DNA from: Sphingobacteriaceae bacterium
Lineage (GTDB): Bacteria; Bacteroidota; Bacteroidia; Sphingobacteriales; Sphingobacteriaceae
Assembly (NCBI GenBank): GCA_947463785.1
Contig: CANHRG010000001.1
Location: 186,001-250,000 of the forward strand
Direction: 5' to 3'
DNA length: 64,000 nucleotides
The first letter of the stretch is position 1. Each line of letters begins with the position of its first letter. Both the position numbers and the translations under genes were made by a program. The notes under the pieces are model-generated. The model had not been told where the DNA came from. It did no database searches and saw only the letters and a program-made list of their open reading frames with translations. This document shows positions 18,064 through 46,189 of the stretch, in pieces.

Positions 18064-19617
18064 ATGCAGGAAACACGTATTCTTTGGGCCGACGATGAAA
18101 TTGATTTGCTGCGGGCACATATCTTGTTTTTGAACGAAAAGGGCTATGAGGTAAAAACGGTAACCAATGGCAGCGATGCGCTGGAAATTTTCAAAAAAGA
18201 ACACTTTGACCTTGTTTTTTTAGATGAGAATATGCCCGGATTGACCGGCTTGGAAACCCTGGCGGCCATTAAAAACCTAAGTCCGGAAACGCCAACGGTT
18301 TTGATTACCAAAAACGAGGAAGAGCACTTGATGGAGGATGCCATTGGTTCAAAAATTGACGACTACCTGATTAAACCGGTAAACCCCAAACAAATTCTGC
18401 TTACGATTAAAAAGATTATCGACAACAAGCGATTGGTTAGCCAAAAGACCTCTATGGCGTATCAGCAGGATTTCCGCAATCTTGGTATGATATTGAACGA
18501 TCGGCTTAGTTTTTCGGAGTGGGCCGAGGTGTATAAAAAATTAATTTACTGGGAGCTTTCTTTAGAAAAGCTGGAGGATGCCGGCATGCATGAGATTCTG
18601 ACCAACCAAAAATCAGAAGCAAACATGCAGTTTGCCAAGTTTATTGAGAAACATTACCTCGATTGGATCAAAAACCCCGAATCGGGTCCGCTTACGTCTA
18701 ATGACTTGTTCCGAAAAAAGGTGTTTCCAGCACTGGAAGATAAGCGCCCAACCTTTTTCATCCTGATAGATAATTTAAGGTATGACCAATGGCGGGTATT
18801 AAACCCAATAATTACCGATTATTTCCGTCTAGAAGAAGAAGACTTTTACTACAGTATTTTACCCACCGCTACGCAATATGCTCGAAATGCCATTTTTTCG
18901 GGTTTAATGCCTTCTGAAATGGAAAAACGTTTCCCAGAAAAGTGGCAAAACGATGAAGACGAGGGAGGTAAAAACCTCTACGAGGCAGATTTTTTAGCCG
19001 ATCAAATCAAACGACTTTATCGAAAAGAGTGTAAGTTCAGTTATCACAAGATTCTCACCTTAGACCAGGGTCGAGATATTACAGATAGCCTAAACAATTT
19101 AATGAATAACGATCTAAACGTATTGGTTTACAATTTTGTGGACATGTTGTCGCATGCTCGAACCGATATGGCTATGATCAAAGAACTGGCAAGTGACGAG
19201 GCTGCTTACCGATCACTTACGCTTTCTTGGTTTGAACATTCTCCTTTGCTGGAAACTCTAAAGAAATTGGCCCGCAAAAAGGTTAAACTCATCATTACTA
19301 CCGATCATGGGACTATACGGGTTAAAAAGCCCAATAAAGTAATCGGAGACCGGAATACCAACACCAATTTGAGGTATAAACAAGGCAAAAATCTCAATTT
19401 TAATCCTAAAGAAGTTTTTCACATTAAAAACCCTGCGGATGGCATGCTACCCAGATTACACATGAGTTCGGGCTATATTTTTGCCAAAGAGGATGGGTAT
19501 TTCGTGTATCCTAACAATTACAATTTTTATGTGAATCATTTCTACGATACATTCCAACATGGGGGAATATCGCTGGAAGAAATGATCATTCCGATAGCTA
19601 CCTATTTACCCAAATAA
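18064..19617 (+). CDS. porX: PorX-type response regulator with PglZ domain (type IX secretion regulator)
   Basis: 517 residues from the ATG at 18064. The receiver domain is 1-120 with the acidic pair D10/D11, phosphoacceptor D54 (VFLDENMPG) and the conserved Lys in LIKPVNP. A helical linker leads to a PglZ domain of alkaline-phosphatase fold: FILIDNLRYDQW, TQYARNAIFSGLMP and ITTDHGTIR carry the metal ligands and nucleophile Thr. In Porphyromonas and Flavobacterium, PorX regulates type IX secretion and its PglZ part is a zinc-dependent phosphodiesterase. No kinase gene adjoins it; an orphan kinase at 44943-46181 is a candidate partner. Confidence 0.93.
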   Translation: MQETRILWADDEIDLLRAHILFLNEKGYEVKTVTNGSDALEIFKKEHFDLVFLDENMPGLTGLETLAAIKNLSPETPTVLITKNEEEHLMEDAIGSKIDDYLIKPVNPKQILLTIKKIIDNKRLVSQKTSMAYQQDFRNLGMILNDRLSFSEWAEVYKKLIYWELSLEKLEDAGMHEILTNQKSEANMQFAKFIEKHYLDWIKNPESGPLTSNDLFRKKVFPALEDKRPTFFILIDNLRYDQWRVLNPIITDYFRLEEEDFYYSILPTATQYARNAIFSGLMPSEMEKRFPEKWQNDEDEGGKNLYEADFLADQIKRLYRKECKFSYHKILTLDQGRDITDSLNNLMNNDLNVLVYNFVDMLSHARTDMAMIKELASDEAAYRSLTLSWFEHSPLLETLKKLARKKVKLIITTDHGTIRVKKPNKVIGDRNTNTNLRYKQGKNLNFNPKEVFHIKNPADGMLPRLHMSSGYIFAKEDGYFVYPNNYNFYVNHFYDTFQHGGISLEEMIIPIATYLPK

Positions 19618-37143: not shown

Positions 37144-37401
37144 ATGGACAAGAATGATCAGCTTTTTGGCTCATTGATTTACTTATTTCACACTACTGGA
37201 ATGCAGGGCTTAGGTAAATTGATGAACCCTGTAAGTCAGAAAATCGAGAAAAATTTGGATCAGGCAAAAGAAAGTATTGATATGCTCGAAATGCTGAAAC
37301 AAAAAACTCAGGGAAATTTGAGTCCGGAATTAACTCGCTTAATAGAACAATTTTTAACAGATTTGCGCTTGAATTATGTAGATGAAAGCAAAAATCAGTA
37401 G
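37144..37401 (+). CDS. DUF1844 family protein
   Basis: 85 residues. It matches DUF1844 throughout: an N-terminal helix FGSLIYLFHTTGMQGLGKL, a central SIDMLEMLKQKTQGNLSPELTRL, and an end FLTDLRLNYV. DUF1844 proteins are small, helical and of unknown function, widespread in bacteria. The first gene of a two-gene unit, followed 23 bases later by a membrane-anchored coiled-coil protein. An inverted repeat lies upstream of its promoter. Confidence 0.85.
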   Translation: MDKNDQLFGSLIYLFHTTGMQGLGKLMNPVSQKIEKNLDQAKESIDMLEMLKQKTQGNLSPELTRLIEQFLTDLRLNYVDESKNQ

Positions 37402-37424: not shown

Positions 37425-38330
37425 ATGGATATTCAAAACGCCTCAAAAAAAGACAACAACAAGATTTATTTCTTACTCATAGTCGTTCTAGCGCTTTTTG
37501 CTACAAACGGCATTCTCTTTTTCCGCAATAAAAAGGCTCAAGAGCAAGTGCTTAAGTTGAGTGATGAGAAAACACTCATGCAAACCGAGATTGATAAAAT
37601 TGAGGCGGCATTAGATAAATCGAATAACGATTATGCTCTGCTGAGTGAAGACATGCAGCAGCAACAAGAACAGGCACGAGTTAAGATTGCGGAGTTGAGA
37701 GAAGCTTTGCGTAAAGGCGAACTGACTAAACAAGAATTGGGATCGGCACAGAAAGAAGTTGAAGAGCTTAAGCAATTGGTTAACCAATACTTTGCTCAGA
37801 TTGAAGAACTTAAAAAACAAAATGCCGATTTAACCAATCAACGTGATAGTTTGAAAACCACGGTTGGTTCGGTAACAGAGCGTGCTCAATCTTTAGAAAA
37901 ACAAAATCAGGAGCTGGATAAGAAAGTAAGAGCAGCAGCAGCTTTGAAAGCCATTGCACTTAAGGCCATTGCTCTGAAAGTTAAAAGTAGCGGAAAAGAA
38001 TCAAGCGTAAGTAAATCAAGTACCGCTAAAAAACTCAGCATTGTGTTCAAATTGGTTGAAAACGAGTTTGCCGAAAAGGGCATGCACAATGTGTATATTC
38101 GGGTGGTTGATCCGGAAAACAATACCATCAACGGAACAAACGGAAACATCACGTTAGCTAATGGTGAAGAAGTCAATACCTCTTACAACACAGCCATTGA
38201 GTATGCCAACGATTCTAGGTTATACACCATTTCATGGACCAACCCAAATCCTTTTAAGAAGGGAATCTACTCTGTTTTGCTGTATGCAGATGGATTTTTA
38301 ATGGGTAGCACCAAGGTAGAATTGAAATAG
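37425..38330 (+). CDS. Membrane-anchored coiled-coil protein with C-terminal beta domain
   Basis: 301 residues. One membrane helix (about 14-32, IYFLLIVVLALFATNGILFF) anchors it. Residues 35-165 are a long coiled coil rich in E, K and Q (LREALRKGELTKQELGSAQKEV and after). A short tandem repeat LKAIA-LKAIA-LKVK (around 174-187) links it to a C-terminal domain (200-301) that appears beta-rich, with VFKLVENEFAEKGMHNVYIRV in pieces. Similar proteins occur in Bacteroidota, unnamed. I infer an envelope-spanning structural protein; no enzymatic motif is seen. Confidence 0.82.
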   Translation: MDIQNASKKDNNKIYFLLIVVLALFATNGILFFRNKKAQEQVLKLSDEKTLMQTEIDKIEAALDKSNNDYALLSEDMQQQQEQARVKIAELREALRKGELTKQELGSAQKEVEELKQLVNQYFAQIEELKKQNADLTNQRDSLKTTVGSVTERAQSLEKQNQELDKKVRAAAALKAIALKAIALKVKSSGKESSVSKSSTAKKLSIVFKLVENEFAEKGMHNVYIRVVDPENNTINGTNGNITLANGEEVNTSYNTAIEYANDSRLYTISWTNPNPFKKGIYSVLLYADGFLMGSTKVELK

Positions 38331-38336
38331 CACTGT

Positions 38337-38543
38337 TTAGTGTTCAGGTTGAGAAGCTTCAGTTAATAGCTGATTTAGTTTCTCAACCTGTTCAATAAGC
38401 GATGGGTATATTTTAGCGAACTTCTGACCGAATTCCGGCTCATCATTCTCCCACGATTTCTGTAAAATTTGCAATCCCAACCTAATCGGGGTTAAGTCGT
38501 TTTTGAGCTGATGTATTAGCGTAATCAAATTTTCTCTTTCCAT
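38337..38543 (-). CDS. 68-residue protein resembling a free-standing histidine-kinase DHp domain
   Basis: 68 residues, single ATG start. The N-terminal helix contains H11 in HQLKNDLTPIRLGL, which closely resembles the NtrY-type kinase H-box (HELKNPLTPI). A second helix IEQVEKLNQLLTEAS would pair with it, as in DHp hairpins. There is no ATPase domain, sensor or membrane segment. It is convergent with the coiled-coil gene (6-base gap) and separated by about 100 bases from fabD. It could be a phosphotransfer, phosphatase or decoy domain, or simply look alike; function unknown. I judge it a real gene from its length, clean start and sensible composition. Confidence 0.62.
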   Translation of the reverse strand: MERENLITLIHQLKNDLTPIRLGLQILQKSWENDEPEFGQKFAKIYPSLIEQVEKLNQLLTEASQPEH

Positions 38544-38645: not shown

Positions 38646-39527
38646 TTAGATGCTGGCGCTTGCGGTATCTACTTCACGATCTACTTTTTTAACCAAACCT
38701 TGAAGCACGTTTCCTGGTCCAACCTCAGTGAAAGAGGTAGCACCGTCTGCCAGCATGTGCTGCACAGTTTGTGTCCAGCGTACAGCACCGGTAAGTTGAG
38801 CAATTAAGTTTTGTTTAATAGCCGATGGATCTGTATACGGCTTAGCATCGATATTTTGATAAATAGGACAAACTGGGGATTTGATATCCGTATTCTCAAT
38901 GGCAGTTTGCAATTCTGCACGTGCAGATTCCATTAAAGGAGAGTGAAAAGCACCACCAACATTGAGTTTTAAAGCTCTTCTTGCGCCTGCTTCGGTAAGT
39001 TTTTCACAAGCTTGGTCAATACCGGCAATACTTCCTGAAATAACGAGTTGTCCGGGACAATTGTAATTTGCGGGCACTACCACCTCGTCTACCTGAGCAC
39101 AAATAGTCTCCACAACCCGATCTTCAAGTCCTAAAATTGCCGCCATGGTTGAGGGTTGTTCTTCACAGGCTTTTTGCATGGCATTTGCTCGAGCAGCCAC
39201 CAATCGCAAACCATCTTCAAAGGATAGCGCCCCCGCTGCAACTAGGGCTGAAAACTCACCCAAACTATGTCCGGCAACCATTTCTGGTGTAAAACTTCCG
39301 CCTAAAACCTTTGCCAAAATTACCGAGTGCAGGAAAATTGCTGGCTGGGTAACCTTAGTTTCCTTCAAATCCTCATCCGTTCCGTTAAACATGACATCGG
39401 TAATACGAAAACCCAGAATTTCATTGGCTTTTTCAAAAAGCTCTTTTGCTATTTCCGATTGCTCGTAGAGTTCTTTACCCATGCCCACAAACTGAGCGCC
39501 CTGTCCTGGAAAAACGTATGCTTTCAT
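38646..39527 (-). CDS. fabD: Malonyl-CoA:ACP transacylase
   Basis: 293 residues. Loads malonyl groups on ACP for fatty-acid synthesis. Motifs: FPGQGAQFVGMGKELYE, the nucleophile in GHSLGE (S88), the malonyl-carboxylate Arg in LVAARANAMQKA and the catalytic His in GGAFHSPLM. The gene follows folE by 12 bases on the same strand, so the two are probably co-transcribed. Confidence 0.97.
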   Translation of the reverse strand: MKAYVFPGQGAQFVGMGKELYEQSEIAKELFEKANEILGFRITDVMFNGTDEDLKETKVTQPAIFLHSVILAKVLGGSFTPEMVAGHSLGEFSALVAAGALSFEDGLRLVAARANAMQKACEEQPSTMAAILGLEDRVVETICAQVDEVVVPANYNCPGQLVISGSIAGIDQACEKLTEAGARRALKLNVGGAFHSPLMESARAELQTAIENTDIKSPVCPIYQNIDAKPYTDPSAIKQNLIAQLTGAVRWTQTVQHMLADGATSFTEVGPGNVLQGLVKKVDREVDTASASI

Positions 39528-44459: not shown

Positions 44460-44962
44460 AGATACCGCTCTTTTAACACTTCTTGGTGGTGTTTCAAGTG
44501 ACCTACAATAATATATACCAAGGCTCTTACCGAAACCTCATTGTTATTGGCAAGGCCTCTTCGTACCAATTCCTCCTCGTTAAAAGATTCGAAAAGGAAC
44601 AGATTAGCCTTTCTGACAAGGGCAAATTCTTCTGCTAAACTTTCCAAACTACGTTCAGAATAATGGGAGTATTTCACGTATTCATTCTCGTCAAATCCAG
44701 GCAGATTTTGACTGTCGTTTCGTGCGAATCGGAGTGCACGATAAGCCATTATGCGTTCGGTATCTATAATATGCCCCAATAATTCTCTGATGGTCCATTT
44801 ACCTGAGGCATAGGCGTAATTTTCTTTCGCTTTCGGAATACTCCGGATGAATGCCGGAAATTGCTCACCCTGCTGTTCCAATTCGTTCAAAACATCATCT
44901 TCTACCTTGGAAATATAGGGTCCGAAATACGAATTGAATTCTTCAGCTGTTGGTTGGTACAT
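44456..44962 (-). CDS. DinB-family metal-binding protein
   Basis: 168 residues, four-helix DinB/YfiT-like bundle. The three probable metal-ligand histidines are in ELLGHIIDTER and the C-terminal GHLKHHQEVLKERY. The group includes thiol S-transferases (for example bacillithiol- or mycothiol-dependent), so conjugating or detoxifying small molecules is likely; the substrate is unknown. Its ATG lies 20 bases inside the end of the upstream histidine kinase gene, in another frame. That makes it the third gene of the FAD-enzyme / kinase / DinB operon. A second, YfiT-type member is at 50553. Confidence 0.87.
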   Translation of the reverse strand: MYQPTAEEFNSYFGPYISKVEDDVLNELEQQGEQFPAFIRSIPKAKENYAYASGKWTIRELLGHIIDTERIMAYRALRFARNDSQNLPGFDENEYVKYSHYSERSLESLAEEFALVRKANLFLFESFNEEELVRRGLANNNEVSVRALVYIIVGHLKHHQEVLKERYL

Positions 44963-46181
44963 AGCTTAAATTGCTTTTTAAAATGATTCGAAAGGTTGCG
45001 CCCTTACCCACTTCGGATTCTTTGACAAAAACCTGTCCTTTATGGTAATTTTGAATAATTCTACGGGTTAGCGAAAGCCCCAAACCCCAACCTCGTTTTC
45101 GAGTGGTATATCCGGGTTGAAAAACCCGTTCGAATCGACTTCGTGGTATTCCCTTTCCCGAATCGGTAACATCGATGAATACCTGCTCTTTTACGAGGTT
45201 TTCAGTGATGTTAACTTCAATTTCGCCGCTTTCTTCAATGGAGTTCACCGCATTTTTCAATAAATTTTCTAGCACCCAATCAAACAATGGCACATTGAGC
45301 AGCGCTTCAACGCGTTTATCTCCGCTTACCTTAAATCTGATTTTATCGCTGCTTCTGAACTCGAAATAATCTACAAAATCACGAACGACTTTGTAAACCA
45401 CATGACTTTCCAGTACAGGTTTTGATCCAATTTTAGAAAAACGTTCTGCAACAATTTCCAGACGTTTCATGTCGTTCTCCATCTCAAGGAATAACTGATC
45501 ATCTTTGCCCTTGAACCGAGATTTTAGTAGTTCAACCCAAGCCATCATGGATGAGATAGGGGTACCTAATTGATGGGCTGTTTCTTTAGCTAATCCAACC
45601 CAAACCTGGTTTTGCTCTGATTTTCTTGCGGTGTTAAATACAAAATAGGCAAAGAGCAGAAAAATTGCAATCAGCGAAAGCTGTATGTAGGGGAACATTC
45701 GGAGCCTGCTCAACAGTACCGAATCTTTATAATATACCAATTGCTCGTTCTGTTGATCAAAGGAAGAAACCTGAATGCGTATCGGATCATGTTGATCTTT
45801 CATTTCTTGAAGCTGCAATTCGAAATAGGCAGGATCATACATTTTTTTATTTTTCACGCTATTTTCTGCTTCCAGTTTAATATTGGTTTTGGTACTGTCT
45901 AGCCCTTTCCAAAAAATAATTTTCCCTTTGGCATCCGTAACAATAGCCGGCACTTCCAAACTATCACGAACGGAATAAATAAACGTGACAAATTCATCGT
46001 TTACATCGGCAATTTCCAGAATCTTTTTATTACTCATGGCCCAAACCTCGGCCCGTGTACGTTCGGCAATGGAAATGTTTTTAACGAGGTAATTGGTATA
46101 CCATAATGATGCCCCTGCAATCAGAATGGCGAAAGCCAGCAGTAAAAATTTAGATAGACGTTTTTGGGCGTAAACTTTCAT
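44943..46181 (-). CDS. Orphan sensor histidine kinase, possible PorY
   Basis: 412 residues. Two membrane helices (about 11-32 and 163-183) enclose a periplasmic domain of about 130 residues. The H-box is LAKETAHQLGTPISS with H203, and the ATPase domain has an N-box (VLENLLKNAVNSI), DSGKGIPRSRFE and GWGLGLSLTRRII. The AHQLGTPISS H-box and the overall size are those of the kinases annotated as PorY in Bacteroidota. No response regulator adjoins it. porX at 18064 is an orphan regulator in the same window, so I suggest, without proof, that they form the PorX/PorY pair. The gene follows the FAD enzyme by 8 bases. Confidence 0.88.
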   Translation of the reverse strand: MKVYAQKRLSKFLLLAFAILIAGASLWYTNYLVKNISIAERTRAEVWAMSNKKILEIADVNDEFVTFIYSVRDSLEVPAIVTDAKGKIIFWKGLDSTKTNIKLEAENSVKNKKMYDPAYFELQLQEMKDQHDPIRIQVSSFDQQNEQLVYYKDSVLLSRLRMFPYIQLSLIAIFLLFAYFVFNTARKSEQNQVWVGLAKETAHQLGTPISSMMAWVELLKSRFKGKDDQLFLEMENDMKRLEIVAERFSKIGSKPVLESHVVYKVVRDFVDYFEFRSSDKIRFKVSGDKRVEALLNVPLFDWVLENLLKNAVNSIEESGEIEVNITENLVKEQVFIDVTDSGKGIPRSRFERVFQPGYTTRKRGWGLGLSLTRRIIQNYHKGQVFVKESEVGKGATFRIILKSNLSYVPTNS

Positions 46182-46189
46182 TATTCAAC

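Follow-up and report, generated by a model that had tools for sequence, protein, structure and literature searches.

Can the DHp hairpin of a histidine kinase persist as a gene of its own once the sensor and the ATPase are gone? This question is raised by a 68-residue protein, which we call P68, encoded at positions 38337-38543 of a 64,000-nucleotide stretch (the window) of G000, the small genome of a freshwater member of the Sphingobacteriaceae (its relatives are numbered G001 and onward). The initial annotation, made from the sequence of the window, took this protein for little more than a DHp hairpin with His11 lying in HQLKNDLTPIRLGL. Both points are borne out, the first by a Pfam HisKA match, by synteny and by the two helices of an AlphaFold2 model. 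The strand, which that annotation did not give, is the minus strand. The features of the locus are as follows.

37425-38330, plus strand: cc301, a gene for a 301-residue coiled-coil membrane protein, convergent with P68 and one of two synteny anchors (reading frame, synteny)
38337-38398, either strand: inverted repeat or RNA hairpin with arms at 38337-38358 and 38377-38398, a possible 3' end of cc301 (folding)
38337-38543, minus strand: P68 reading frame, DHp-only remnant of an NtrY-like kinase (reading-frame call, HisKA match, synteny, AlphaFold2)
38352-38432, minus strand: predicted helix alpha2, residues 38-64 (AlphaFold2, coordinates by arithmetic)
38448-38537, minus strand: predicted helix alpha1, residues 3-32 (AlphaFold2, coordinates by arithmetic)
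38472-38513, minus strand: H-box HQLKNDLTPIRLGL, residues 11-24 (sequence, alignment to 23 kinases)
38499-38501, minus strand: codon of Asn15 (H+4), the phosphatase position in CrdS (alignment; PMC3510030)
38511-38513, minus strand: codon of His11, the phospho-acceptor position (alignment to 23 kinases)
38646-39527, minus strand: upstream neighbour of P68 and the other synteny anchor (reading frame, synteny), which we take to be fabD from its sequence family

P68 is a DHp hairpin with no ATPase or sensor beside it

The P68 frame runs from ATG to stop over exactly 38337-38543 on the minus strand, giving 68 codons, or 91 codons when measured from stop to stop. The gene order on this strand is folE, fabD and P68, with fabD ending 102 bp upstream of P68, and the convergent cc301 gene ends 6 bp beyond the end of P68. 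The absence of an ATPase and a sensor, also claimed initially, holds for the protein, whose frame stops after the hairpin, and for its surroundings, where the flanking genes are fabD and cc301 and neither domain is encoded; none of the HATPase_c matches of the genome falls at this locus. A promoter scan combined with a Bacteroidetes promoter motif gave no promoter-like site upstream of P68, and a terminator scan and an Rfam search returned nothing at the locus. Codon-position GC in P68 is similar to that of the neighbouring genes, with 69 codons being too few for this comparison to decide. Beside cc301 there is also a gene for an 85-residue DUF1844 protein (37144-37401 of the window, plus strand), and this arrangement is conserved in the genus and in some relatives.

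HisKA (PF00512) was the sole Pfam match to P68 at E<=10 (E 9.1e-5, 22.9 bits), with no HPt profile match at that threshold. The score lies below the gathering score of 26.9, which is exceeded by the intact orthologues (four of these kinases score 30.6-39.7 bits). Structure prediction, which the initial annotation had proposed as a check, gave a two-helix hairpin compatible with a DHp; specifically, the AlphaFold2 model, built with 24 aligned sequences, has helices at residues 3-32 and 38-64, a mean pLDDT of 91.0 and a pTM of 0.69. HK853 (2c2a) superimposes on this model with a TM score of 0.77 and an rmsd of 1.7 over 63 columns at 24% identity, with a non-significant E value of 1.2, and Foldseek returned nothing at E<=0.001. 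With VIA-align, designed and unrelated helical hairpins (best score 8.6) outranked the HK853 chain 6rh0_B (7.6). Generic helical hairpins thus score as high as DHp domains and the fold alone is no proof of a DHp; the DHp identity of P68 is proved by sequence and synteny.

P68 is the remnant of an NtrY-like kinase encoded after fabD

When 60 genomes were searched with P68, any match at E<=1 being counted as presence of the kinase, 53 genomes had a match, its own included. The best match in another genome had an E value of 9.2e-17, and the weak ones, from putative orthologues, included those in G050 (1.35e-3), G052 (2.5e-4) and G057 (9.8e-5). The best match lies within an open frame of at least 300 aa in 52 of these 53 genomes, leaving G000 as the only one with a DHp-only frame. 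A related-loci search of the genome contigs found no free-standing P68 relatives elsewhere, and no second DHp-only frame was seen among the 60 genomes and the genus genomes or among the best matches listed in the family search. Three of the six searchable genomes of the genus are without any P68 match.

Synteny was followed in 20 hand-picked stretches from relatives. In 12 of them (G004, G005, G007, G010, G013, G016, G017, G018, G021, G022, G026 and G028) the gene that immediately follows fabD on the same strand is the one with the DHp match, and fabD falls outside the stretch in four (G014, G020, G027 and G036). The congeners G001, G002 and G003 have no DHp here, their cc301 and fabD matches being 40-76 bp apart, and in G012 fabD is on a short contig with neither DHp nor cc301. 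The shared order is cc301, DHp, fabD and folE. An NtrY-like kinase of ~1240 aa follows fabD in most of the Sphingobacteriaceae examined; for example, the full-length kinase of G010 (1237 aa) has a long membrane-bound part followed by C-terminal HisKA and HATPase_c domains. P68 is like these kinases in place and strand, and its DHp is homologous to theirs (37-49% identical in the alignment); it differs from them in lacking the transmembrane sensor, the HAMP region and the HATPase_c domain and in having Gln for Glu at H+1 and Asp for Pro at H+5. This homology, together with the position between cc301 and fabD, shows that P68 is what remains of the fabD-linked kinase, that is, the DHp remnant of a membrane-bound NtrY-like histidine kinase of ~1240 aa. 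The resemblance to an NtrY-type H-box that was seen initially therefore stands as far as the relatives are NtrY-like kinases, but these are full kinases and not free DHp proteins.

The frame at this locus also comes in other sizes. Measured between stops it is 485 aa in G026, where weak Cache and HAMP matches are kept, 322 aa in G013 and 306 aa in G004 and G005, the latter three having an apparent transmembrane start, a DHp and an ATPase; these four genomes are 1.6-2.2 Mb in size. Frames of 484-488 aa hold the best match in three of the 60 genomes, and frames of ~1200 aa do so in most. Shorter frames also occur in relatives with larger genomes, being 479 aa in G364, 632 aa in G361 and 659 aa in G382 among the matches listed, and the 60-genome search adds G052 (807 aa), G059 (857 aa) and G040 (484 aa). 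These frames may reflect truncations, frameshifts or contig ends, and truncation may thus extend beyond small genomes.

A tree built from ten neighbouring genes of 16 genomes joins G004 and G005 to G000 with a bootstrap value of 99 and places G001-G003 as the sister clade, so that a single genus has the kinase at 306 aa, at 68 aa or not at all. The single-TM kinases of G004 and G005 share their locus and genus with P68, are intermediate in size and have DHp domains that are 47% and 44% identical to it, whereas their one apparent transmembrane segment, ATPase domain and intact HEIKNPLTP box set them apart. Their G1 box reads NNCSGIP in G004 (L051 7765-8685) and DNGCGIP in G005, and the former sequence suggests that ATP binding by the G004 kinase may already be impaired. 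Special selection on the DHp of these 306-aa kinases was also considered and was rejected by control pairs. Specifically, G004 and G005 differ at 4 of 72 residues in the DHp and at 35 of 150 in the CA part, and their CA/DHp divergence ratio is 4.1 (34 of 149 aligned CA residues) as compared to 1.6-10.1 in 16 other pairs, mostly of intact kinases.

An NtrX-like sigma-54 regulator is the probable partner of the parent kinase

G000 has 14 receiver domains. In the window, at about 18079-18408 on the plus strand, is the receiver of a 536-aa regulator that we take to be PorX-like. At C2:158884-160320 (L120) of the genome lies a sigma-54 regulator without an adjacent kinase; its best NCBIfam model is NtrX, and we call it NtrX-like because its score of 428 bits is below the NtrX cut-off of 600. 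Orthologues of this regulator were called at E<=1e-130, a cut-off chosen once the gap between 7.8e-133 and 2.6e-94 had been seen. They are present in 51 of the 60 genomes and missing from G001, G002, G003, G011, G012, G027, G028, G035 and G054. The survey was extended with all 20 family genomes that lack a P68 match, G043 and 12 hand-picked kinase-bearing controls, each searched with the regulator and with the full-length kinase. Over the 86 genomes, 62 have both genes (G000 being counted through P68), three have only the kinase (G027, G028 and G054), four have only the regulator (G043, G102, G150 and G232) and 17 have neither (Fisher p 1.4e-11, a value that ignores shared ancestry and treats non-independent genomes as separate). 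The regulator is thus missing from 17 of the 21 kinase-less genomes as compared to 3 of the 65 others. Joint absence spans five genera (g1, g7, g8, g18 and g21), some of the genomes being incomplete (60-87%). At E<=1e-25 the full-length kinase query gave a single match among the 21 kinase-less genomes, of 407 aa in G232 (E 4.1e-27), and we take this for a paralogue.

The kinase and regulator genes are unlinked, being on different contigs in G000, G004 and G005, so that their pairing rests on the co-inheritance profile and on the NtrY/NtrX resemblance. On these grounds the NtrX-like regulator is the probable partner of the parent kinase. The PorY-like or LytTR partners that had been suggested initially are not indicated, and it is the NtrX-like regulator to which co-inheritance points. 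On the G000 lineage the regulator is intact and has an omega of 0.022 (0.023 in the receiver) versus 0.067 in the background, indicating that it is fully constrained there. We also observed that one position in helix 1 of its receiver is Ile in G000 (L120) and Thr in six relatives; judged by eye, this is a position that was changed in the rewired HK853-RR468 pair, and it may have co-changed with P68.

The H-box has lost its Glu and kept its Asn

The 23 aligned kinases carry HEIKNPLTP at residues 11-19 (P68 numbering) and share 20 invariant positions. P68 keeps 13 of these (H11, K14, N15, L17, T18, P19, L22, Q25, L27, F38, Q52, E62 and S64) and has altered seven (A10I, E12Q, I13L, P16D, F45I, I59L and F63A); it also keeps 6 of 10 nearly invariant positions and has the commonest residue at 7 of 27 variable ones. 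The conserved His that the initial annotation proposed to look for in orthologues is thus invariant in all 23 kinases. The acidic residue at H+1 is missing from P68, where Gln12 stands in place of the Glu found in 23 of 23 kinases, and the Asn or Thr expected at H+4 is present as Asn15.

CrdS of Myxococcus xanthus shares the HEIKNPL box and, according to PMC3510030, its Glu to Gln change at H+1 abolished kinase activity and left full phosphatase activity, Ile to Leu at H+2 was tolerated, the Asn at H+4 was needed for phosphatase activity only, and Pro to Ala at H+5 cost much of the phosphatase activity, with more than half of the substrate still phosphorylated at five minutes. In the same paper, NtrB and EnvZ are said to need no more than their DHp to act as phosphatases both in vitro and in vivo, at a weaker level than with the CA domain, and PMC5727384 describes an HK853 DHp construct assayed as a phosphatase. 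By analogy, the signature of P68 should be kinase-dead and phosphatase-permissive plus one change, P16D, that should hurt; Asp16 in place of Pro argues against an efficient phosphatase. Among the roles offered initially (relay, phosphatase and mixed dimer), that of a phosphatase fits best, with Asn15 kept and Gln12 present, and is weakened by Asp16; a relay or a mixed dimer would be possible but no partner kinase is pointed to. The window also encodes a 413-aa histidine kinase (44943-46184, minus strand) with the H-box AHQLGTP, in which Gln occupies H+1, and with an ATPase domain. A Gln at H+1 is therefore no certain sign of a dead kinase.

Over its whole branch P68 is relaxed and far from neutral

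Selection was analysed with branch times taken from neighbouring genes; these times are rough, synonymous sites being almost saturated. In the seven-taxon set (910 codons) the DHp has an omega of 0.016 in the background and 0.226 on the P68 branch, and both neutrality (2dlnL 58.6) and equality (2dlnL 94.2) are rejected. The nine-taxon set (901 codons) gives 0.020 and 0.278, and neutrality is again rejected (2dlnL 46.7). The omega of P68 is thus ~14 times that of the DHp elsewhere, and six neighbouring genes have branch-to-background omega ratios of 0.7-1.3. Averaged over the whole branch, P68 is relaxed yet far from neutral. A model in which strict constraint gives way to neutral evolution over the last ~22% of the branch fits the data equally well, however (lnL about -901.3 versus -900.8), so that constraint before truncation may account for the residues that P68 has preserved.

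A working remnant or a late decay

Our preferred reading, to which we give a little less than an even chance, is that P68 is a working remnant, a kinase-less DHp that would act on the NtrX-like regulator as a phosphatase or docking partner. P68 would still be made as a small soluble hairpin, which would dimerise into a four-helix bundle, and this bundle would bind the receiver of the retained sigma-54 regulator at C2:158884-160320. Having no ATPase and Gln for the catalytic Glu, P68 would be unable to act as a kinase. Through His11 and Asn15 it might dephosphorylate the regulator or, failing that, keep its receiver occupied, and so could serve, blind to any sensor input, as an off-switch or buffer for a regulator that is phosphorylated by small phosphodonors or other kinases. 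This working remnant is favoured by synteny, by the intermediate sizes, by the 13 of 20 invariant residues that are kept, by the loss of Glu with Asn retained, by the isolated-DHp phosphatase precedents, by kinase/regulator co-inheritance, by the constraint on the regulator and by the rejection of neutrality for P68. Asp16 and the absence of a promoter-like site in the upstream scan argue against it. As no other DHp-only frame was found, there is also no second free-standing copy to show conservation, and the four kinase-less genomes that keep the regulator, in which no remnant was found, indicate that retention of the regulator does not require P68. A bolder version, that this natural 68-residue DHp is devoted to a sigma-54 regulator as its sensor-blind phosphatase or insulator, standing near the end-point of a dismantling through ~1240, 485, 322, 306, 68 and 0 residues in which kinase chemistry is lost first and docking last, we regard as rather unlikely.

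A close rival of the working remnant is late decay, in which the sensor was lost and then the ATPase, and the leftover is functionless, merely undeleted and stop-free so far. This could well be the case, although we lean against it. The ~14-fold higher omega, the equal fit of the switch to neutrality and the seven altered kinase-invariant positions count for late decay and against a working remnant, and the gene has been wholly lost in three congeners, leaving the 40-76 bp between the fabD and cc301 matches. The open frame can be read both ways. If the neutral span is estimated from the invariant positions alone (~0.19 substitutions per site), the probability of meeting no stop is 0.21-0.32, whereas under the maximum-likelihood estimate of that span (0.46 substitutions per site) 59 codons would stay stop-free with a probability of 0.02-0.06, with frameshifts uncounted. 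Late decay is further opposed by the ATG, by the lack of any indel relative to the relatives over residues 6-64 and by an H-box in which H, K, N, L, T and P are all kept.

The DNA might also be retained for an RNA hairpin that ends cc301 transcription, with the P68 protein being incidental. The segment 38337-38398 does fold stably, at -34.3 kcal/mol on the plus strand (z -7.2) and -22.2 kcal/mol on the minus strand (z -4.4). The plus-strand hairpin, whose stability was reached by 0 of 200 shuffles, is the second most stable of 6392 subwindows (81 nt) in the 64 kb. Among the three congeners without the kinase, G002 and G003 carry ordinary hairpins at the same junction and G001 does not; G004 and G005 are without the hairpin of G000. 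However, the inverted repeat covers only the last 20 codons of P68 and leaves the H-box outside, so that it does not explain the preservation of the H-box, and the omega of P68 is equal before the hairpin (0.232) and within it (0.211). The plus-strand hairpin is also not followed by a T run, and the terminator scan was negative. We therefore consider retention for the sake of this hairpin improbable, and the hairpin itself may be the 3' end of cc301.

A phosphate relay or mixed dimer, in which P68 pairs with or is phosphorylated by another kinase and passes the phosphate on, is in our estimate very improbable. It could draw on the retained His11 and on the HisKA kinases encoded elsewhere in G000, at least five of which have an ATPase domain, and the kinase at 44943-46184, with both Gln at H+1 and an ATPase, indicates that Gln alone is no bar to phosphorylation. 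Against this, Gln at H+1 abolished autophosphorylation of CrdS (PMC3510030), the NtrY-type HEIKNPLTP box is found in none of the other translated kinases, and no kinase gene adjoins P68. Finally, an unrelated small helical protein or chance reading frame resembling HisKA, which the Pfam score under the gathering cut-off and the match of simple hairpins to DHp domains in fold comparison might suggest, is refuted by the position between cc301 and fabD and by the E value of 9.2e-17 to a kinase DHp, and has virtually no chance of being correct.

The common view of two-component systems is that kinase and regulator are acquired and discarded together. The P68 lineage seems to keep the regulator and, of the kinase, only the regulator-facing hairpin, and its sister clade has lost both genes. 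Should P68 be made and active, it would show how a bifunctional sensor can become an off-switch in the course of genome reduction. Otherwise, the size series still records the erosion of a large kinase, the sensor going first, then the ATPase and then the DHp.

Comparison with other DHp proteins

A literature search, which is weak evidence given that subscription papers lay mostly outside it, found no natural DHp-only protein. A second DHp protein without an ATPase is encoded in the same genome, outside the window, at C3:55585-56973 (L116 and L132), where TPR repeats, an apparent transmembrane segment and a HisKA match are followed by a stop. Across this protein and its relatives (L133-L142), 11 of the 12 loci examined have a frame that stops 65-80 residues past the start of the motif, H+1 is Glu in four, Gln in five and Asp in two, and H+4 is Ala, Gly or Ser. 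These sequences point to a conserved DHp-without-ATPase family. Its members resemble P68 in having a DHp and no ATPase and in occurring in the same genome, and differ from it in being long, in their TPR repeats, in their conservation in several genera and in having neither Asn nor Thr at H+4.

Spo0B is a DHp-like hairpin that is able to serve a regulator without being a kinase, and it retains a degenerate ATPase-like domain. The likeness of Spo0B-type phosphotransferases to P68 is in the hairpin, whereas P68, at 68 residues, is without such a domain; Spo0B was not listed in the structure-sequence search with P68. In the DHp-only constructs of EnvZ, NtrB and HK853, a DHp alone is reported in PMC3510030 and PMC5727384 as a phosphatase, as we propose for P68. 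These constructs are laboratory-made, whereas P68 would be a natural gene with Gln at H+1 and Asp at H+5, and if it is made and active it would be the natural counterpart of the laboratory DHp-alone phosphatase.
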